Part shown: positions 11,053 to 25,806 of the stretch, in pieces
How the letters are laid out: every line of letters begins with the position of its first letter
Position numbering within the stretch: position 1 is the stretch's first letter
DNA from: Caldalkalibacillus uzonensis
GTDB lineage: Bacteria > Bacillota > Bacilli > Caldalkalibacillales > Caldalkalibacillaceae
Direction of reading: 5' to 3'
NCBI RefSeq assembly: GCF_030814135.1
Contig: NZ_JAUSUQ010000002.1
Location: 1-64,000, forward strand
DNA length: 64,000 bases
Notes under the pieces: model-generated
What the model saw: only the letters and a program-made list of their open reading frames with translations
Databases searched by the model: none
What the model was told of the DNA's origin: nothing
Program-made: the position numbers and the translations under genes

Positions 11053-11250
11053 AACCCTCACACCTCCATCAAGATTCAAGGACCAAACAGCTTGCTCCAT
11101 GCCCATTAAAAAATGCGGGTACAAGTCACCCGCATTTAATCTTCTCAACGCTAATCGGTCGTTCATGAACCTGCCAACATTTCCAGTCGATCAGGTGAGA
11201 AGCGGGTCGCTTCTGCTTGTTGTGTCCATATATCGTTACAAATGAGATAT
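11053..11250 (-). promoter_or_regulatory. infC leader (L20-type autoregulatory leader)
   Basis: The roughly 200-base untranslated stretch before infC contains an intrinsic terminator (11105-11137) ahead of the SD. Bacilli regulate infC-rpmI-rplT by L20 binding to such a leader and causing early termination. Position and terminator support this. I did not fold the L20-binding junction. Confidence 0.6.
11105..11137 (-). terminator. Attenuator in the infC leader
   Basis: Arms AAATGCGGGT (11111-11120) and ACCCGCATTT (11128-11137) form a 10-bp stem with a 7-base loop, followed on the minus strand by a run of U residues. It lies upstream of the infC SD, so it acts inside the leader. Confidence 0.8.
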
Positions 11251-14695: not shown

Positions 14696-15310
14696 CTAAA
14701 GTCCGTGGATCAATTGGTAAGGTTTACGTTTGGTTTGTTCATAGTGTGCAATCTGTTCGGCATATAACTCCGTTACACCTATGTCATCCAATCCTTTTAG
14801 CAACATCTCGCGGCGGTAGGGATCTGTGGTGAACGAAGTTTTCCATCCCGCTTCATCGCTGATCTCCTGCTTCTCCAAGTCGACGGTCAAGGTGTAGCCT
14901 TCTGTGTCCAGTGCCCGCTTAAACAAAAGATCAACTTCCTGTTCATCCAAAGCAATAGGCAAAATCCCGTTTTTAAAGCAGTTGTTGTAGAAGATATCCG
15001 CAAAGGACGGTGCAATAATCACCTTAAACCCGTAGTCAAGGAGAGCCCAGGGAGCATGCTCCCGGGACGATCCGCAACCAAAATTGTGACGGGTCAGCAA
15101 AATGCTGGCCCCCTCATATCTCGGTTCATTCAAGGTGAAGTTGGGATTGGGCGATCCGTCATCCAAGTAGCGCCAATCATAGAACAGGAACTGGCCAAAT
15201 CCGGTGCGTTCGATCCGTTTTAAAAATTGTTTCGGAATGATCTGGTCCGTATCCACATTCACTTTATCCAATGGTGCCACTAAACCCTTATGCCGAATGA
15301 GGGGCTCCAT
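14696..15310 (-). CDS. leuD: 3-isopropylmalate dehydratase, small subunit
   Basis: This is the swivel domain partner of LeuC in leucine synthesis, isomerising 2- to 3-isopropylmalate. The 204 residues begin [20 protein letters not shown] and contain [12 protein letters not shown] and [15 protein letters not shown], the hallmark loop. An SD AAGGAGG precedes ATG 15310. The gene overlaps the leuC end by 23 bases. It is the last gene of the ilv-leu operon. Confidence 0.96.
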
Positions 15311-16727
15311 GGCGATCCCTCCTTCTTAAATCTAGTTCACGCACATCCACAAAATGGCCGAAAACAGCCGCTGCTGCCGCCATGGCCGGGCTGACCAAAT
15401 GAGTTCGTGCCCCTCTTCCCTGGCGGCCCTCGAAATTACGGTTAGAGGTGGAGGCACACCGTTTGCCAGGTGGTACCACATCGGGGTTCATACTTAAGCA
15501 CATGCTGCAGCCCGCTTCTCTCCACTCAAAACCGGCCTCGATAAAAATATGGTGCAATCCTTCTTCCTCTGCTTGCCGCTTCACTTTTTTGGAACCCGGG
15601 ACGACCAGCGCCGTCACACCTGGTGCCACCTTGCGTCCTTTGACAATGTGGGCCGCTTCTCTTAAATCCTCAATACGGGAGTTGGTACACGAACCGATAA
15701 ACACATAATCAATGGGGATCTCGGTGATTTTTGTTCCCGGCTGAAGCCCCATGTATTCTAAAGCCTGAGCGGCGGCCCGCTGCTGAACTTCACTCTCAAA
15801 ATCGCTGGGATCAGGAACAACACCGCTGATCCCTGTGCCCATACCCGGGTTAGTGCCCCAGGTGACTTGCGGCTCAAGGTTACTCACATCAAAGGTCACT
15901 TCTTTGTCAAACACGGCTCCGTCGTCGGTGGCTAATGCTTTCCATTCCTCCACGGCTTGTTCAAAAGCCTCTCCTTTTGGTGCATACAAGCGTCCATGAA
16001 GATATTCAAAAGTGGTTTGATCAGGAGCGATCAAGCCGGCTCTGGCGCCAAATTCAATGGACATGTTACAGATGGTCATGCGCTCTTCCATGGTCATGTT
16101 TTCAATCACAGGCCCCGCGTATTCCACTACATAACCGGTGCCAAAGTCAACCCCATACCTGGCAATCAGTCCTAAAATGACATCCTTGGCCATCACACCC
16201 AGTCCCCGTTCGCCTGTAAAATTGATTCTCATCGTCTTGGGGCGCTTTTGCCACAAACATTGAGTGGCCAATACATGCTCCACTTCACTGGTACCAATGC
16301 CGAAAGCCAAGGCACCAAAAGCACCGTGGGTGGAGGTGTGGCTGTCCCCGCAGACAATGGTTTTACCCGGCAAGGTGAGGCCCAGCTCAGGTCCGATCAC
16401 ATGCACTATGCCTTGCTCTTCACTGTGCAAATCGGCCAAAGGAATGCCAAACTCCTTACAGTTCTCTGTTAATGTTTTCATTTGTTTAACAGCAATTTCA
16501 TCCCTGGTGGAAAAGGGATCATCGGTCGGCACATTGTGGTCCATGGTGGCAAAAGTCTGCTCAGGCCGGCGTACGCGTCGCCCGGCCAGACGCAATCCTT
16601 CAAAGGCCTGGGGTGATGTCACTTCATGGATCAAATGCAAATCTATATAGATCAAACTGGGTTTATTCTCTTCTTCCACAACCACATGCTGTTCCCAAAT
16701 TTTATCGATCATTGTTTTGGGACTCAA
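15288..16727 (-). CDS. leuC: 3-isopropylmalate dehydratase, large subunit
   Basis: This aconitase-family enzyme (479 residues) carries the [4Fe-4S] cluster. Cluster cysteines are visible in FIGSCTNSR and in [10 protein letters not shown]. The start is TTG 16727, with GAGGTG seven bases before it. ATG 16712 (residue 6) is the alternative. The C-terminal tail after GHFVDVREL (about 14 residues) is extra, because the frame reads on into the overlapping leuD start. Confidence 0.96.
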
Positions 16728-16803
16728 CTCTGTTCACCTCTCTTGACAGTCATTTTCATCCGTTCCTTTTCGAACCGTTCCCTTCATCACGGATATATTT
16801 CTA

Positions 16804-17892
16804 TCAGACCGAAATTTCCTGTTTCAGATAGGCACGCACTTTTTCGCCCATTTCAGTTGTGCTCAAGGCAGGCTCTCCTTCTTGAGCCAAATCACGGGTG
16901 CGGTAACCATCATCCAATACCTTGCGGATGGCCTGTTCGACAGCCTGAGCTTCCTTCTCCAAATGAAAAGAGTATTTTAACATCATCGCGACTGATAAAA
17001 AAGTTGCCAGCGGATTGGCCAGATTTTGCCCGGCGATGTCCGGAGCCGAGCCGTGTACCGGTTCGTACAAGCCCGGTCCATCTTCACTCAGACTGGCTGA
17101 AGGGAGCATGCCCAATGACCCGCTTAACATAGCCGCTTCATCACTTAAAATGTCTCCGAACATATTCTCTGTGACCACGGTGTCAAACTGGCTCGGTTTT
17201 CTGACCAGCTGCATGGCCGCATTATCAACCAGCATATGCTCCAGTTTAACATCGGGATATTCCTTTCCGATCCGATCGGCGGTTTCTCTCCACAAGCGAC
17301 TGCTATCCAATACATTGGCTTTATCCACTGAGACCAAATGTTTCTTTCTGACACGGGCAATTTCAAATGCTTTTCTCAGCACACGTTCGATCTCAGCCTC
17401 GGTGTAATACAAGGTATCTACGACGGCCAGCCCCTGATCTGTTTGTTTGCGTCCTCTGGGCTGACCGAAATAGAGCCCTCCCGTTAATTCACGAATAATC
17501 ATCAGGTCGACGCCTTCCAGCACTTCCGCTTTCAGGGATGAGGCATTGGCCAGAGCCGGGAAAACAATCACGGGGCGCAGATTGGCATATAACTGCAGTT
17601 CTTTGCGCAAACCCAACAGACCGGCTTCAGGTCTTTTCTCACCGGGGCCATGGTCCCACTTGGGTCCACCCACAGCACCAAGCAAGATGGCGTCACTTTC
17701 CCGGCAAAGTTGGAGTGTTTCTTCAGGCAGGGGCGTGCCCGTTTTATCCAGGGCACACCCTCCAATATCGGCATACTGGAAATGGAAAGTATGGCCGAAC
17801 TGTATACCCACTTCTTCGAGAAGTTGAACAGCTTCCCCGGTCACTTCAGGTCCTATTCCGTCTCCTGGCAGAACGGCGATTTGCTTGATCAA
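16804..17892 (-). CDS. leuB: 3-isopropylmalate dehydrogenase
   Basis: This NAD-dependent oxidative decarboxylase makes 2-ketoisocaproate for leucine synthesis. The 362 residues start [17 protein letters not shown] and contain [14 protein letters not shown] and the metal-site stretch [14 protein letters not shown]. The leuA stop overlaps the start by 4 bases (ATGA type). Confidence 0.97.
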
Positions 17893-19457
17893 AGGGCTTT
17901 CACTCCTTTTGTCTCTTCCCGTTGTTCAGTACGGTATTGCATATATTGTTCTTTGAACAGGATGCGGTTGACAGCATCCAGATAAGCTTTTGCTGAAGCT
18001 TCCAGCACATCGTGCGCAATACCCCGGCCGCTGGATGTTTGCCCATGATAATTCACTTTGACATATACTTCAGCCAGCGAATCGATGCCACTGGTCGTAG
18101 ACTGGATGCGGTAATCTAGCAGCTTAACTTCATTGTCCAACACCCGTTCAATGGCATTGTACAGGGATTCAACGCTGCCTTTGCCTGTAGCTGACTCCTG
18201 CACGACCTCACCACTGGGCAATTTGATGCCTACCGTGGTGGTGGGTACCACATGAGAACCATAGGCCACTTGTAAAAATTGCAGCTCATATCTTTCTTCT
18301 TTGCCCTGTACATTGGTATTCATCACCAGGGTGAGGATATCGTCCTCAGTCACTTCTTTCTTTTTGGCCGTCAAATCTTTGAAGGCTTTAAACAGCTTCT
18401 GGAACGCTTCCTCGGACAATTGAAGCCCCATTTCCTTACACTTCTCTTTAAAAGCGTGACGGCCGGAGTGTTTGCCCAGCACCATCCGGTTGGAGGATAA
18501 ACCGACCAATTCAGGTTCAATAATTTCATAGGTTAACTTATTCTTCAGCACACCATCCTGATGAATCCCCGACTCATGGGCAAAGGCATTGGCTCCAACC
18601 ACTGCCTTGTTGGGCGGGACAGGCATACCGGTCAGTTTGCTGACCAGCTGGCTGGTGCGGATTGTTTGAGCCAGATCTAAGCTGGTCTCGGCTTGATAAT
18701 GGTCTCGCCGGGTATACAAAGCAACGCCAATTTCTTCTAAAGAGGCATTACCAGCCCGTTCCCCAATGCCGTTGATCGTGCCTTCAATTTGCTGTACACC
18801 CTGTTCAATGGCGGCCAGCGAGTTGGCTACAGCCATACCAAGATCATCATGGCAGTGGGCAGACAACTTCACCCTGTCAATATTGGGTACATTGTCCCGA
18901 ATATACCGGAACATAGCTCCGTACTCCTGGGGGTGCATGTAACCCACTGTATCCGGCAGATTGATCACACAGGCTCCAGCATCAATCACCTTAGTAATAA
19001 TCTCAACCAAAAAGTCCCAATCACTGCGGGTGGCATCTTCGGCGGACCATTGCACTTTGGGGAAGAAGCGCTTGGCATACTTTACGGCCGAAACAGCTGT
19101 TTCGATCAATTCGTCCTCCGTCATGTTCAGTTTGTATTTCATATGGATGGGGGAAGTGGCAATAAAGACATGCAAGCGAGGATCCACACCATCCTTCAGC
19201 GCTTCCCAGGCAGCATCAATGTCACTTTGAACAGAGCGGGCCAACCCTGTCACGGAACAATTTTTGATTTCCCTGGCAATATGCTGTACTGCTCGAAAAT
19301 CTCCTTCGGAGGAGGCTGGATAACCAGCCTCCATAATATTGACACCATAACGTTCCAGCTGATAGGCAATCTCCAGTTTTTCATTAAAATGAAGATTGAC
19401 TCCGGCAGACTGTTCACCGTCTCTCAATGTGGTGTCAAAAATATCAATTTTTCGCAC
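17889..19457 (-). CDS. leuA: 2-isopropylmalate synthase
   Basis: This enzyme condenses acetyl-CoA with 2-ketoisovalerate, the first committed step to leucine. The 522 residues include [13 protein letters not shown], metal-binding [13 protein letters not shown], and a C-terminal regulatory LeuA dimer domain that binds leucine. It starts with GTG 19457 and overlaps the end of ilvC by 14 bases. Confidence 0.97.
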
Positions 19458-20472
19458 TCGTCACCACATCCTTCAACACACCTTTTCCTTTAACAAAAGG
19501 CATTTTCTCCCTCAACTGGCGTCCCACCTGCTCAATAAGATGTTCATTTTCACGACGGGTTAAAGCATTAAACATGGGGCGGTTGGCCTGATTTTCAAGT
19601 ACCCAGCCCTTGGCAAACTGACCAGACTGGATTTCTTCCAAAAGCTTTTTCATTTCCTGTTTGGTTTGCTCATTAATGATGCGCGGTCCGGCTGTCAAAT
19701 CTCCCCACTGGGCGGTGTCAGAGACAGAGTAGCGCATCCCTGCCAACCCCTCTTCATATATCAGGTCAACGATCAATTTCATTTCATGCAAGCATTCGAA
19801 ATAGACAACCTCGGGCTGATATCCTGCTTCTGTCAATGTTTCAAACCCAGCTTTGATGAGGGCCGCTAAACCTCCGCACAGCACGGCCTGCTCACCAAAC
19901 AAATCGGTTTCTGTCTCTTCCCGGAAGGTGGTTTCAATCACCGCGGCCCGGGTACAGCCAATCCCTTTGCTGTAAGCCAAGGCAATCTCTTTCGCTTGAC
20001 CGGTCACATCCTGATAAACGGCAATCAGACCGGGAACCCCGCCGCCTTCCTGGAACACGCGGCGCACCACGTGGCCGGGACCTTTAGGAGCAACCAAAAA
20101 GACATCCACATTGTCAGGCGGAACCACCTGATTAAAGTGAACATTAAATCCATGAGCAAAAGCAAGCGCCTGATTTTCTCTTAAGTAAGGTTTGATCTCC
20201 TGTTCGTAAACCTGAGGCTGGCTTTCATCAGGCAGAAGCAGCATGACAATATCGGCTTGTTGGGTTGCTTCAGAGACGGAATAAACTTGGAAGCCATCTT
20301 CTTCCGCCTTTTCCCAAGATTTACCTCTGCGCAAACCAATGACCACATTGATCCCATTATCCCTCAAGTTTTGAGCGTGGGCATGCCCCTGGGAACCATA
20401 GCCAATAACGGCTACTGTTTTTCCTTGTAATACATCCAATTGAACATCTTGATCATAATACATCTTTGCCAT
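19444..20472 (-). CDS. ilvC: Ketol-acid reductoisomerase
   Basis: The second common enzyme of valine and isoleucine synthesis (342 residues). The Rossmann motif [15 protein letters not shown] and the following LRRGKSW, whose Arg and Ser contact the NADPH phosphate, are present. The C-terminal knotted domain contains [17 protein letters not shown]. The gene sits between ilvH and leuA. Confidence 0.97.
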
Positions 20473-20538
20473 TTGTCATCTCTCCTTTTTGTTCATTTTT
20501 CCTCTTCAAACATGTATGTGAATGAAGTAATAGAACCA

Positions 20539-21069
20539 CTAAATCAGGGAAAGGGCATCATGCTTGATGCGGGTCACTTCCCGCTCCCGTTCTCCGCCCC
20601 GTTTAAAGGCGGTCACCCCAGTGCGGGCCAGTTCCTTAATGCCATAGGGTCGCAATAACTCGATCAATGCTTCGATTTTTTCCGGGTTGCCTGTGGCCTG
20701 GATGGTCACACTTTCCAGGCTGACATCGATGATCGAAGCGCGGAACGGTTCGATTAGGTTGGTCAGCTCAGTTCTTTTCTGCAAAGGACTGAGCACCTTG
20801 ATCATGACCAATTCCCGCTCCACAGAAGGTTCATTGGTAATGTCGATCACTTTAATCACATCAATTTGCTTGTGCAATTGCTTGATGATTTGTTCATTTG
20901 TGCGTTCATCTTCCACATTGACCACAATGGTCATCCGGGATAGTCCTTCTGTCTCCGTCTTGCCCACGGTAATACTGTCAATGTTAAAACCGCGGCGTAA
21001 AAACAAGCCTGTAATCCGGTTCAACACACCCAAATGATCATTGACAATGACACTTAAAATGCGTCTCAT
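20539..21069 (-). CDS. ilvH: Acetolactate synthase, small (regulatory) subunit
   Basis: A 176-residue regulatory subunit with an N-terminal ACT domain ([19 protein letters not shown]) that senses valine, and the C-terminal ALS_ss domain ending in [11 protein letters not shown]. Its start overlaps the ilvB stop by 4 bases, as expected for subunits made in fixed ratio. Confidence 0.96.
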
Positions 21070-22790
21070 GGCTTAATCCCCTCCATTTCATGGATCCCTT
21101 TGCCCGGTGCTATCATGGGATATACATTTTCATCAGGTGTCACCCGGCAATCAACCAACACAGGACCAGGAGTGTTCAAAGCCTCTTCAATGGCTGCCCT
21201 GGCTTCTGCTTCCGTTTCAGCTCTAAGCCCTTTGATCTGATAAGATTCGGCCAGCTTCACATAGTCAGGCTGATTGGGGATAAGTGACTCAGAGTAACGT
21301 TCCTTGTAGAAAAGTTGCTGCCATTGTCTGACCATTCCTAAAGCGTAATTGTTGACAATGATCACTTTGACAGGCAGATCATAATCGGTGAGGACGGAGA
21401 GCTCTTGCAAGGTCATCTGAAAACCGGCATCACCAACCACGGCCAAAACAGTTTTATCACGCATCCCCAGCTGTGCGCCGATCGCTGCTGGAAAACCAAA
21501 GCCCATGGTGCCCAGTCCGCCTGAAGTAACCCAGCGATGGGGCTCCTTGAAGGTGTAGTATTGAGCCGTCCACATCTGATGCTGGCCCACATCTGTGGTC
21601 ACCACCGCCTCGCCTCCGGTCAGTTCATGAATCATTTCTATTAACCGCTGGGGTTTTAATGTTTTATGGTCTTCGGTATACCATAAGGGATATTCTTTTT
21701 TCATTTGGTTCAGATGCTGCCACCACTGGGCGGTGTCTCCGGGGGCCAAATCTTCCTCTAGTAGCATCTTAAGGGTTTCCCTGGCATCCCCTACTACCGG
21801 AATATCGGTCTCAACCACCTTGCCGATTTCGGCCGGGTCAATATCCACATGGGCCACTTTGGCAAACTTGGCAAAATGTTTCGGATTGCCTGTTAAGCGG
21901 TCGTCAAAGCGGGCTCCGAAATTGATAATCAAATCGGCTTCATACAAAGCCATATTGGCCACGTAAGTGCCATGCATGCCGCCCATCCCCAGGAACAAGG
22001 GATGATCGCCCGGGAAAGATCCTAGTCCTAAGAGTGTATTGACAACCGGCATGTTAACCCGTTCGGCAAAACTTCTCAGCTCTTGATGAGCCTTGGCATG
22101 AAGAACGCCAGCCCCAGCCAGGATAACTGGTTTTTTAGCCTGCTTGATGGCCGCCACAATTTTTTGAATCTGCAGCCGGTTAGGGCTTACTGTCGGTTGA
22201 TACCCTCTGAGAGACACCTCTTCGGGATAGTTAAACAGCCCTTCCTGATTGGAGATGTCCTTGGGGATATCAATGAGCACTGGTCCCGGCCGTCCCGTGC
22301 CGGCGATATGAAAAGCTTCCTTGATGATCCGCGGCAGGTCATCAATCGATTTCACTTGGTAATTATGCTTAGTAATCGGCATGGTAATCCCAACAGTCGG
22401 TGCTTCCTGAAAAGCATCTGTACCCATTACAGTAGTGTTGACCTGCCCGGCAATCACCACAATAGGCAGTGAGTCCATCATGGCATCGGTCAAACCAGTG
22501 ACCATATTGGTAATTCCAGGACCGGAGGTAGCAATGACCACAGCCGTTTTACCAGTTACCCGGGCATATCCTTCGGCAGCATGAATAGCACCCTGCTCAT
22601 GCCGGGTCAAAATATGACGGATTCCCGCATCATACAAGGCGTCATAAATGGTTAAGACGGCCCCTCCGGGATAACCAAAAATAACCTCCACTCCCTCTTT
22701 TTTTAAGGCCTCAACCAGCATAAGTGCCCCTGACATCCTCTTTTGGCTGCTATGAGCAGCCGCCTCTTCCGCTTGCAACTTTACGCTCAT
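21066..22790 (-). CDS. ilvB: Acetolactate synthase, large (catalytic) subunit
   Basis: This ThDP- and FAD-dependent enzyme makes acetolactate or acetohydroxybutyrate. The 574 residues include [14 protein letters not shown] with the following catalytic-Glu region ([17 protein letters not shown]) and the ThDP motif [31 protein letters not shown] (split: GDAGFQM to NN). I place the start at ATG 22790, six bases after AGAGGGG. The longer frame back to 22898 runs through the T-box terminator and is rejected. It is the first gene after the leucine T-box. Confidence 0.96.
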
Positions 22791-23125
22791 ATTCATCCCC
22801 TCTAATCTGTTTTTGACGAATAAAAAAACCTTTTCCTCCCCACAGCAAGACCATACGGTCAGGCAAGGGATGAAAAGATTTCCTTTCCATGGTACCACCC
22901 TTCTTCACATTGCCCTTGCGGACAATGCCTCATGAACGGAAGATCCAATTGCTCCGTCCCTTTTAGTAACGAGTGCAGTGCACCCGGCCTCACCTACTCT
23001 CTGTTCAGTGAGACGCTCAGAGGTGAGTTCATCCTAAGTGTGTACCACCGGTTTTCAGCTGCCCCGGCTCTCTGTAGATACACGGCCTTAAGACTACTTT
23101 TCCCCTTCAACGCTTTACATTATAA
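22791..23125 (-). promoter_or_regulatory. Leucine T-box leader before ilvB
   Basis: The T-box core AAGGGTGGTACCA lies at about 22890-22903 on the minus strand, followed by an intrinsic terminator (22822-22880). In Stem I the sequence GAACTCACC contains a candidate leucine specifier CUC (23027-23025), the codon I recall for the B. subtilis ilv-leu T-box. A perfect TATAAT lies at 23124-23119 but has no good -35 box. Transcription may therefore come mostly from ilvE read-through. Confidence 0.9.
22822..22880 (-). terminator. T-box terminator before ilvB
   Basis: On the minus strand AATCTTTTCATCCC pairs imperfectly with GGGGAGGAAAAGG, followed by TTTTTTTA. It would be prevented when uncharged tRNA-Leu stabilises the antiterminator. 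Confidence 0.8.
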
Positions 23126-23140
23126 AGTTATCATAAGTGT

Positions 23141-24049
23141 TTATCCTACCTGGTATTTTTGCTGTGGATAAACCTTAACGCCATCAGTGACCACTAACTC
23201 ACGGAAGGCTTGCAACAGGGTCTGAGTATGTGGCCCAGGCTGACCATCTCCAATGACCCGGCCATCAACCTTGACAACTGCAATCACCTCAGCTGCGGTT
23301 CCGGTCAAGAAAACTTCATCAGCGGTATAAACATCATACTGGGTAAAAGGCTCTTCCTTAACCACATAGCCTTTTTCCCTGGCCAACTCAATGATGGCAT
23401 TGCGGGTAATTCCTTCTAATGCCCCCAGATAGGTTGGCGGTGTGTACAGCACCCCATTTTTGACCAAAAAGATGTTGTCACCGGAACACTCCACCACATA
23501 CCCTTCTGTATTGAGCATCATCGCTTCTTTGACCCCGGCCAGATGAGCTTCAATTTTAACGAGAATGTTGTTTAAATAGTTGAGTGACTTTATCTTGGGG
23601 CTTAAAACATCGGGACGGTTGCGGCGGGTAGCCACTGTCACAATTTCCAGTCCTTTTTCATAATATTCCTTAGGATATAAAGCCAACGCTTCAGCAATGA
23701 CAATGACCTGGGGCCTGCCACAGGTGAAAGGGTCCAAACCGAGATTGCCTTTCCCCCTGGAGACAACAAGGCGTATATAAGCATCCTCCAGTTGGTTTTT
23801 GCGTAACGTTTCGCAGATGATCTGCTCCATCTCTTCCATGGTGTAGGGAATCTCCAGCATAATCACCTTAGCCGAATTGTACAAACGCTCAAGATGCTCC
23901 TTCAGCTTAAACACATTGCCAGAGTAGGCTCTTATTCCTTCAAACACACCATCGCCATATAAAAAAGCATGATCATAAACCGATACCTTAGCGTCTTCTT
24001 TGGTGACAAACTCACCGTCCATAAAGATCCACTGACCCACTTTTGGCAC
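23141..24049 (-). CDS. ilvE: Branched-chain amino acid aminotransferase
   Basis: This fold-type IV PLP enzyme performs the last step of valine, leucine and isoleucine synthesis. The 302 residues include YGDGVFEGIRAY, the lysine region PKIKSLNYLNNILVKIEA and the ECSGDNIFLVKNG loop. It heads the ilv-leu block, with its own promoter, a cre site and a ykkC-class riboswitch upstream. The leucine T-box separates it from ilvB. Confidence 0.95.
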   Translation of the reverse strand: MPKVGQWIFMDGEFVTKEDAKVSVYDHAFLYGDGVFEGIRAYSGNVFKLKEHLERLYNSAKVIMLEIPYTMEEMEQIICETLRKNQLEDAYIRLVVSRGKGNLGLDPFTCGRPQVIVIAEALALYPKEYYEKGLEIVTVATRRNRPDVLSPKIKSLNYLNNILVKIEAHLAGVKEAMMLNTEGYVVECSGDNIFLVKNGVLYTPPTYLGALEGITRNAIIELAREKGYVVKEEPFTQYDVYTADEVFLTGTAAEVIAVVKVDGRVIGDGQPGPHTQTLLQAFRELVVTDGVKVYPQQKYQVG

Positions 24050-24111
24050 ACTCCCTTTGAGGAAATTTTTTGAACTGTCATGTTGTATAAAGATTGCTGC
24101 AACGACGTTTC

Positions 24112-24180
24112 AAAAAAAGACAAAAACCCTGCAAATAAGTCATAACGTCCCTCCCGCTACGTCAGAACCTATCCGCAGAG
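24112..24180 (-). terminator. Expression-platform terminator of the ilvE riboswitch
   Basis: CTCTGC (24180-24175, minus) pairs with GCAGGG (24132-24127), helped by an inner GTTCTGACGT/ACGTTATGAC pairing. The stem is followed by TTTTTGTCTTTTTTT. CTCTGC also lies in the aptamer's 3' part, where it can face GCGGGAGG. Ligand binding would therefore block the terminator and switch ilvE on. Confidence 0.7.
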
Positions 24181-24300
24181 GCTTTTGTCCTCACGGTGTA
24201 CACCATGTTCCATGGTGCTGATATCGCTTGGACCAGACCTGTAAACTTATCTGACACATCGAGGCATCAGACAAACTTACAGCGGAACCCTAGATATCCT
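24112..24300 (-). promoter_or_regulatory. ykkC-class riboswitch before ilvE (probably the ppGpp subtype)
   Basis: The minus strand contains the conserved ykkC segments TCTAGGGTTCCGC and CTGGTCCAAGCGATATC, closed by a P1 stem GATATC (24298-24293) with GATATC (24225-24220). The 3' part follows: the hairpin CACCATG-GAA-CATGGTG, GAGGACAAAAGCC and GCGGGAGGGACG. The ykkC family senses guanidine (subtype 1), ppGpp (2a) or PRPP (2b). Placement before a branched-chain amino acid gene fits subtype 2a. The subtype is inferred from context, not from diagnostic bases. Confidence 0.85.
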
Positions 24301-24345
24301 CCTGACCATTCTATATCAGTGCTTTGTTTTTTAATTTTGATAGCT

Positions 24346-24374
24346 ATTTTAATACCAGGTGATAGTGGAGTCAA
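24346..24374 (-). promoter_or_regulatory. Sigma-A promoter of ilvE
   Basis: TTGACT (24374-24369), a 17-base spacer and TAAAAT (24351-24346) on the minus strand. Transcription would start near 24338, about 40 bases before the riboswitch aptamer. Confidence 0.8.
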
Positions 24375-24410
24375 GACTATTTTTTTGACTTTTTCGATTT
24401 AATCAAAAAC

Positions 24411-24425
24411 TTGAAAACGCTTACT
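24411..24425. promoter_or_regulatory. CcpA binding site (cre) upstream of the ilvE promoter
   Basis: TTGAAAACGCTTACT matches the cre consensus WTGNAANCGNWNNCW at every position. It is about 73-87 bp upstream of the predicted start. In B. subtilis CcpA activates ilv-leu from an upstream cre, so activation in carbon-rich conditions is the likely role. Nothing else was recognised between 24375 and 24535. Confidence 0.7.
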
Positions 24426-24531
24426 CCTTTGTGGGGCTTGCGATTATGGAATTATAAACTTTTTGTAAAACATAAAAAAACTGATGCATCACCGCTCAAC
24501 CACCGAGTGAATGGCCAACTAAAGCTATGTT

Positions 24532-24563
24532 AAAAAGGGCTGTCCCCTCTGTAGACAGCCCTT
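24532..24563 (-). terminator. Terminator of the nucleoside transporter gene
   Basis: Arms AAGGGCTGT (24535-24543) and ACAGCCCTT (24555-24563) are followed on the minus strand by TTTTTAAC. Confidence 0.85.
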
Positions 24564-24588
24564 GTTCACTATGTTTCAGTTTAAATTA

Positions 24589-25806
24589 CTATCCAATCAG
24601 CATGCCGGCAATAGCCCCGCTCAACAATGAAGCCAGCGTACCGGCCAAAATGGCCCTGAGCCCCAGACGGGCAATATCCGGACGACGGTTGGGAGCTAGT
24701 CCACCAATCCCGCCCAGCAAAATACCAAGCGAGCTCAGATTGGCAAATCCACATAAAGCAAAACTTAGAATGGCCACTGTTTTCGGTGTCAGTTCCGCCA
24801 TCACTTCTGAAAAGCTGACGTAGGCGACAAATTCATTAAGCACAATTTTTTGTCCGAGAAATGAACCGGCTGATACCGCTTCAGCCCAAGGAACACCAAT
24901 AGCAAAGGCAATGGGGGCAAAAACATAACCCAAGATCAGTTCCAAGGTAAGCACTGGAAAACCAACCCAACCGCCAATGGTCCCCAAGATCCCGTTAACT
25001 AAGGCAATTAAGGCAATGAAGGCCAACAGCATAGCCCCCACATTCAAAGCCAGTTTTAAACCAACAGAAGCTCCCCGGGCAGCCGCGTCAATCACATTGG
25101 CAGACTCCTTGTCTTTTTCCAAATCCACTTTATCGTCGGAAATCTGCTGCTTGTTCACTTCCGGCATCACCATTTTGGCCATGATCAGGCCCGCAGGCGC
25201 AGCCATGAAACTGGCCGCCAGCAAATATTCCAGGGGGATGCCCAAGGCGGCATAGCCGAACAGAACGGACCCGGCAACAGAGGCCAGTCCGCCGGTCATC
25301 ACCGCAAACAGCTCAGATTGGGTCATTTTTTCAATATAGGGCCTAACCACCAGCGGTGCTTCCGTTTGTCCCACAAAAATATTAGCCGCCGCACACAGGG
25401 ATTCGGGACGGCTGGTCCCCAGCACTTTGGCCAAAGCACCCCCGATAATTTTGATAAACCACTGCATGACACCCAGGTAATACAACACAGAGATTAAGGA
25501 AGAGAAGAAAATGATAATGGTCAGTACTTCAAAGGCAAAAACAAATCCGTTGTATTCGTTAAACAAGCCGCCAAACAAAAACTCCGATCCTTCCCGGGCA
25601 AAATCCATAATGTTGGAGACCCACTCCGTAATCCCCAAAAAGATTGCCCGGCCAAATTCCCATTTTAAGACAATAAAAGCAAATGAAATTTGGATGGCTA
25701 ATCCACCCAAGATGGTGCGCAGGTTAATGCGCGTCCTGTTAGCAGAAAACAGGAAAGCGATTGCAAAAATAACAATAATACCAAGTAAACCCCAAATATA
25801 GTTCAC
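24589..25806 (-). CDS. nupC: Concentrative nucleoside transporter (NupC family)
   Basis: This 405-residue inner-membrane symporter imports nucleosides with H+ or Na+. Family features are [48 protein letters not shown], and [19 protein letters not shown] place the start at GTG 25806 (VNYIWGLLG) after AAAGGG. The longer frame from 25890 adds 28 hydrophilic residues without an SD. It is a single-gene unit with its own terminator. Confidence 0.9.

Follow-up and report, generated by a model that had tools for sequence, protein, structure and literature searches.

A predicted ppGpp riboswitch of ykkC subtype 2a heads the ilv-leu operon of Caldalkalibacillus uzonensis

Riboswitches for ppGpp are established upstream of branched-chain amino acid (BCAA) genes (PMC5912903, PMC10687018), and the leader described here, from a window of 64,000 nucleotides, is a well-supported new example of that known class, not a new kind of element. 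It resembles the described ppGpp riboswitches (subtype 2a), such as that of Clostridiales bacterium oral taxon 876 (PMC10687018), in its four-way junction, its P0-type closing helix, its pocket bases, the absence of G at position 96, an overlapping terminator and the BCAA genes that follow; one hairpin of the window (P2 in the Nat Commun naming) is longer than in most relatives, and there is otherwise no notable difference. With the PRPP riboswitch (subtype 2b) of Thermoanaerobacter mathranii (PMC6031431), the window has in common the fold, P0, the GGATAGG segment and a pyrimidine at position 49, but it has U rather than G at position 96 and precedes an ilv-leu operon rather than purine genes. 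In a PRPP aptamer, the single change G96A is enough to switch the specificity to ppGpp (PMC6031431). Guanidine-I riboswitches (RF00442) have the CTAGGGTTCCG and CTGGTCC core in common with the window, which differs from them in having C instead of A at position 49, an added P0 and a score under the gathering threshold. Pairs of a ppGpp riboswitch and a leucine T-box (T box-Leu), the same two RNA sensors that we find on this operon, are also known (PMC5912903, PMC9481103); they share a single 5' UTR, in which either may come first, have separate terminators and are described as AND gates (PMC9481103), whereas in the present operon the two are separated by ilvE.

A complete ykkC-family aptamer lies upstream of ilvE on the minus strand (24306-24161). 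RF00442 (Guanidine-I), the sole ykkC model in Rfam, matches it at 24304-24172 (-) with 58.4 bits (E 1.2e-9, whole genome), below the gathering score of 63, and the aptamer is absent from the listing at that threshold; we attribute the low score to the aptamer being a variant. The whole-genome search found no second RF00442 copy. No Rfam model of the ppGpp or PRPP subtypes matched at the aptamer and the subtype was therefore settled by other means. Residue numbers follow the T. mathranii RNA as crystallised (PMC6031431), whose 3' end is given by its primers. The features of the aptamer are as follows.

24161..24306, minus strand: predicted ykkC subtype 2a (ppGpp-type) aptamer, from the P0 5' strand to the P0 3' strand (RF00442, R1/R2/R3 scores, MFE four-way junction)
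24300..24306, minus strand: P0 helix 5' strand, GTCAGGA, pairing with 24167-24161 (24300 is the A5 equivalent and 24299 the G6 equivalent; covariation)
24298-24293 with 24225-24220, minus strand: P1 closing stem, GATATC/GATATC (sequence)
start 24293, minus strand: CTAGGGTTCCG (sequence)
24236-24230, minus strand: CTGGTCC (sequence)
24226..24227, minus strand: G48-C49 equivalents, G24227-C24226; a pyrimidine at 49 marks the PRPP and ppGpp types and A guanidine-I (sequence; PMC6031431)
24198, minus strand: C75 equivalent, expected to form a Watson-Crick pair with the ppGpp guanine (sequence ACACC; PMC6031431, PMC10687018)
24168..24190, minus strand: conserved 3' aptamer segment, GGACAAAAGCC TCTGC GGATAGG, P3 and ligand pocket (sequence, alignment A1)
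24177, minus strand: position 96 equivalent, U; G would indicate the PRPP type (sequence; PMC6031431)
G24169-G24168, minus strand: G104-G105 equivalents (T. mathranii numbering)
24161..24167, minus strand: P0 helix 3' strand, TTCTGAC, which the terminator hairpin also uses (folding, covariation)

The ykkC core (CTAGGGTTCCG, CTGGTCC and GGAnAAAAGCC) is present, and the original prediction had correctly picked out the first two segments together with the GATATC closing stem. The conserved 3' part of the aptamer is GGACAAAAGCC...GCGGATAGG; the segment previously assigned this role, GCGGGAGGGACG, sits at 24157-24146 (-), beyond the P0 3' strand, and makes up mostly the apical, loop part of the terminator. 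The span first proposed was 24112 to 24300, but the aptamer starts six bases further out, at 24306, the 5' strand of P0 having been missed. The unconstrained minimum free energy structure of 24313-24161 is the full four-way junction (P0, P1, P2 and P3) at -57.3 kcal/mol (z = -3.8 against shuffles), in which P0 forms 7 bp from the ends of the aptamer. The published pocket is matched at all bases checked, namely the equivalents of A5, G6, G48, C49, C75, C77, A101, G104 and G105; C75 is available as the C at 24198, and the TACACCGTG column block is invariant in alignment A1.

The diagnostic positions were evaluated in two surveys. The first searched RF00442 through the order and through 398 genomes of the phylum and took about 80 regions with their downstream genes, the neighbours being identified by tblastn with the Ilv/Leu proteins of the window and the purine proteins of the same genome as queries. 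It gave 104 distinct aptamers, 8 BCAA-linked and 57 purine-linked, one of the latter (L014, which is of guanidine type and has a distant match to PurN) being unscorable. At position 96, G is found in none of the 8 BCAA-linked aptamers (T in 5, A in 3) and in all 56 scorable purine-linked ones (Fisher p = 2e-10, uncorrected for relatedness). A49 occurs in 25 of the 39 aptamers with neither ilv nor pur neighbours, a group that includes the guanidine set, versus 0 of the 8. A pattern scan of named genomes added copies before ilvE in Desulfofundulus, Lihuaxuella and Paenactinomyces. The second survey took 60 more regions ranked by the 2a model and is for that reason not independent of it, as the first survey is; it yielded 35 further BCAA-linked copies (a few from the pattern-scan genomes again), 33 of them without G96, a number of the 60 regions having been excluded from these counts as holding no aptamer by the core regex. 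Pooled, G96 is absent from 42 of 44 BCAA-linked copies (the 8, the Desulfofundulus copy and the 35). The two remaining copies, L144 and L152, both before ilvE, carry G at the aligned position and are either exceptions or one-base length variants, the alignment there being uncertain by one base; the marker is therefore not absolute. Apart from these two BCAA-linked exceptions, P0 together with positions 49 and 96 separates the ykkC subtypes well across a broad sample of genomes.

Covariance models were built for subtype 2a (R1, from 9 BCAA-linked relatives, window and congener excluded), for 2b (R2, 22 purine-linked aptamers) and for the guanidine type (R3, 25 aptamers). The window scores 94.4 bits with R1, 75.8 with R2 and 47.0 with R3, and every held-out purine-linked or guanidine control scored highest with its own model. 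In the MAFFT alignment A1, part of the P0 3' strand is one column out of phase, which should only weaken R1. P0 itself, which distinguishes 2a and 2b from guanidine-I, is supported by covariation among 51 distinct relatives: 82.9% of cells are paired, compared with 68.7% (maximum 74.2%) when the 3' strands are dealt anew, and there are 69 double-sided changes, compared with at most 44. RNAalifold recovers P0 for R1 and R2, but not for R3. The best match is thus neither subtype 1 nor 2b, and the original assignment to subtype 2a is supported by model score, bases 49 and 96, P0 and gene context. For this lineage, in which Rfam yields either no annotation or the misleading label Guanidine-I, the locus adds a clean and correctly subtyped predicted ppGpp riboswitch.

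Among other ligands, nucleoside diphosphates, as sensed by the further nucleotide-binding variant 2c, are very unlikely, as are pGpp or pppGpp as the naturally preferred ligand. Small sequence changes do switch ligands within the family (PMC6031431), and the consensus of 2c comes closest to those of the PRPP and ppGpp types (PMC5912903); 2c is found, however, with NUDIX hydrolases rather than BCAA operons (PMC5912903), and C75 and the non-G residue at 96 are of the 2a type. That a PRPP riboswitch (2b) stands before ilvE by chance is less probable again: the common fold with P0, the pyrimidine at 49 and the R2 score would fit such an RNA, but the U at 24177 sets the window apart from every scorable purine-linked aptamer, the 2a model is better by 18.6 bits and the neighbours serve BCAA rather than purine synthesis. 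We give almost no credence to a guanidine-I riboswitch (subtype 1), the label suggested by the only credible family match in Rfam, given that the score falls short of gathering, position 49 is C, P0 is present, held-out guanidine aptamers reach 91-96 bits with the guanidine model, far from the value for the window, and no guanidine gene was noticed nearby. Both the PRPP and the guanidine subtypes were rejected on models and diagnostic bases. A degenerate, non-switching aptamer that leaves a constitutive terminator or a functionless leader can be dismissed with similar firmness, as nothing direct speaks for it beyond the Rfam score under the cut-off, the checked pocket bases are intact, every base of P0 and P1 is paired, and the congener (L042) keeps the 5' side, the core and the terminator.

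Between the aptamer and ilvE lies the element through which a ppGpp riboswitch would act.

24112..24192, minus strand: strong intrinsic terminator, long hairpin and T run, incompatible with P0 and P3 (folding energy, z)

The hairpin runs from 24192 to about 24116 and the T run to 24112 (-41.4 kcal/mol, z = -7.9). A short hairpin at 24161-24141, picked up by a pattern scan, is just the tip of the real terminator. The 3' third of the aptamer doubles as the 5' arm of the terminator, an overlap that the original prediction had recognised. As the terminator uses P3 and the 3' strand of P0, aptamer and terminator are mutually exclusive; since they have these bases in common, ligand binding should give antitermination (ON). 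Over the entire leader, the calculated energy is -82.7 kcal/mol in the terminator state and -67.8 kcal/mol in the aptamer-compatible state, so that the default should be OFF and the ligand would have to act during transcription. This has been reported for another ppGpp riboswitch, in which the closing helix (P1 there, P0 here) is stabilised by ppGpp against the terminator (PMC10687018). Overlapping terminators are predicted in most of the BCAA-linked relatives examined; a simple terminator search found no convincing P3-overlapping terminator in L043 and L044. We are confident that the leader is a ppGpp-sensing riboswitch of subtype 2a working by antitermination, and the overlap favours the ON direction proposed originally.

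We suggest that, without ppGpp, the nascent leader would refold into the hairpin, which takes up the P0 3' strand together with the whole of P3. RNA polymerase would then halt some 60 nt short of ilvE, at the T run. Upon amino acid starvation, ppGpp would rise and its guanine would pair with C75, the place taken by G96 in PRPP aptamers, while its 5' pyrophosphate would contact A5, G6, G104 and G105. With P0 locked by ppGpp, the terminator could not nucleate and ilvE would be transcribed. Transcripts that extend beyond ilvE would then meet a second sensor, a leucine-type T-box.

24346..24374, minus strand: candidate sigma-A promoter, TTGACT-17-TAAAAT (consensus scan, 10/12 matches)
23141..24049, minus strand: ilvE, branched-chain aminotransferase (TIGR01122, 357.5 bits, cut-off 245.55)
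22863..23119, minus strand: T-box leader, specifier CUC (Leu) (RF00230, 104.4 bits, gathering 93)
21066..22898, minus strand: ilvB frame, the true start lying inside the open frame, downstream of the T-box (TIGR00118, 852.4 bits)
14696..21069, minus strand: ilvN, ilvC, leuA, leuB, leuC and leuD (profile matches for ilvN, ilvC and leuA; leuB, leuC and leuD are open reading frames named from sequence)

The order after the riboswitch is ilvE, T-box, ilvB-ilvN-ilvC-leuA-leuB-leuC-leuD, which agrees with the BCAA, glutamate synthase or related genes expected behind subtype 2a. The start of ilvE is probably the GTG at 24040, which is better spaced from GGGAG. The T-box begins about 20 nt past the ilvE stop and, read by eye, carries its CUC specifier in the usual GAA-CUC-ACC position; the very short gap leaves little space for a second promoter. 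The candidate promoter directly upstream of the aptamer is the only promoter-like site on the minus strand in 23000-24600, which is weak evidence, the number of sites not being above chance. The original prediction, that the riboswitch controls ilvE, was too narrow in scope, for the leader appears from the gene arrangement to head an ilv-leu operon with a T-box after ilvE.

We lean towards a split two-gate operon with one promoter, in which the ppGpp riboswitch alone controls ilvE, and the leucine T-box after it makes ilvBNC-leuABCD require ppGpp and uncharged tRNA-Leu together. If this is true, the aminotransferase common to three pathways answers general starvation, and the remaining enzymes also leucine shortage. 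With this arrangement, graded control of a single transcript by two signals could be tested in a simple, natural setting. Among the relatives examined, ilvE stands between ppGpp switch and T-box only in the window and in the congener L042, whose T-box (1744-2005) has the same placement relative to ilvE and ilvB. The T-box directly precedes the riboswitch in L107, L122, L170 and L172 and directly follows it, before ilvB, in L146; in others none was detected. In L189, a loose regex pointed to a T-box after ilvE, which the Rfam model does not support at E 1e-6, and the split arrangement is therefore seen only in the genus of the window. It is a variation in gene order, not a new mechanism.

With a full-length Rel protein (851.6 bits) encoded in its genome, the organism can make ppGpp. 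CodY is encoded too; ppGpp could therefore act on the operon mainly via GTP and CodY, with the riboswitch as a second layer. Elsewhere in the genome, a possible small alarmone synthetase (L131, C9:72688-73269) matches part of the RelA/SpoT model, the matching region containing one in-frame TGA. An ordinary L20 leader (11101-11224, minus strand, 67.3 bits) also lies in the window, ahead of translation factor and ribosomal protein genes.

Some relatives are unusual in score or context. A ykkC variant before a glutamate synthase-like gene (L118, 450-559) is a near tie between models (R1 79.5, R2 78.0 bits). Two 2a-like aptamers from one genome (G056), L086 and L099, score 92.3 and 91.2 bits with R1 and 89.0 and 80.9 bits with R2; in both, a shift of one base in the alignment leaves the residue at position 96 ambiguous, which makes the ligand type uncertain. 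L086 and another 2a-like aptamer, L175, precede oligopeptide ABC transporter genes. In Tepidibacillus decaturensis (L124, 5719-7360), a 2a-type aptamer with U at position 96 (R1 86.9, R2 62.6 bits) precedes two GNAT-type acetyltransferase genes, which are followed by valS with a T-box in front of it; such genes are unusual behind a ppGpp riboswitch. L168 has the same arrangement and L157 is possibly similar.
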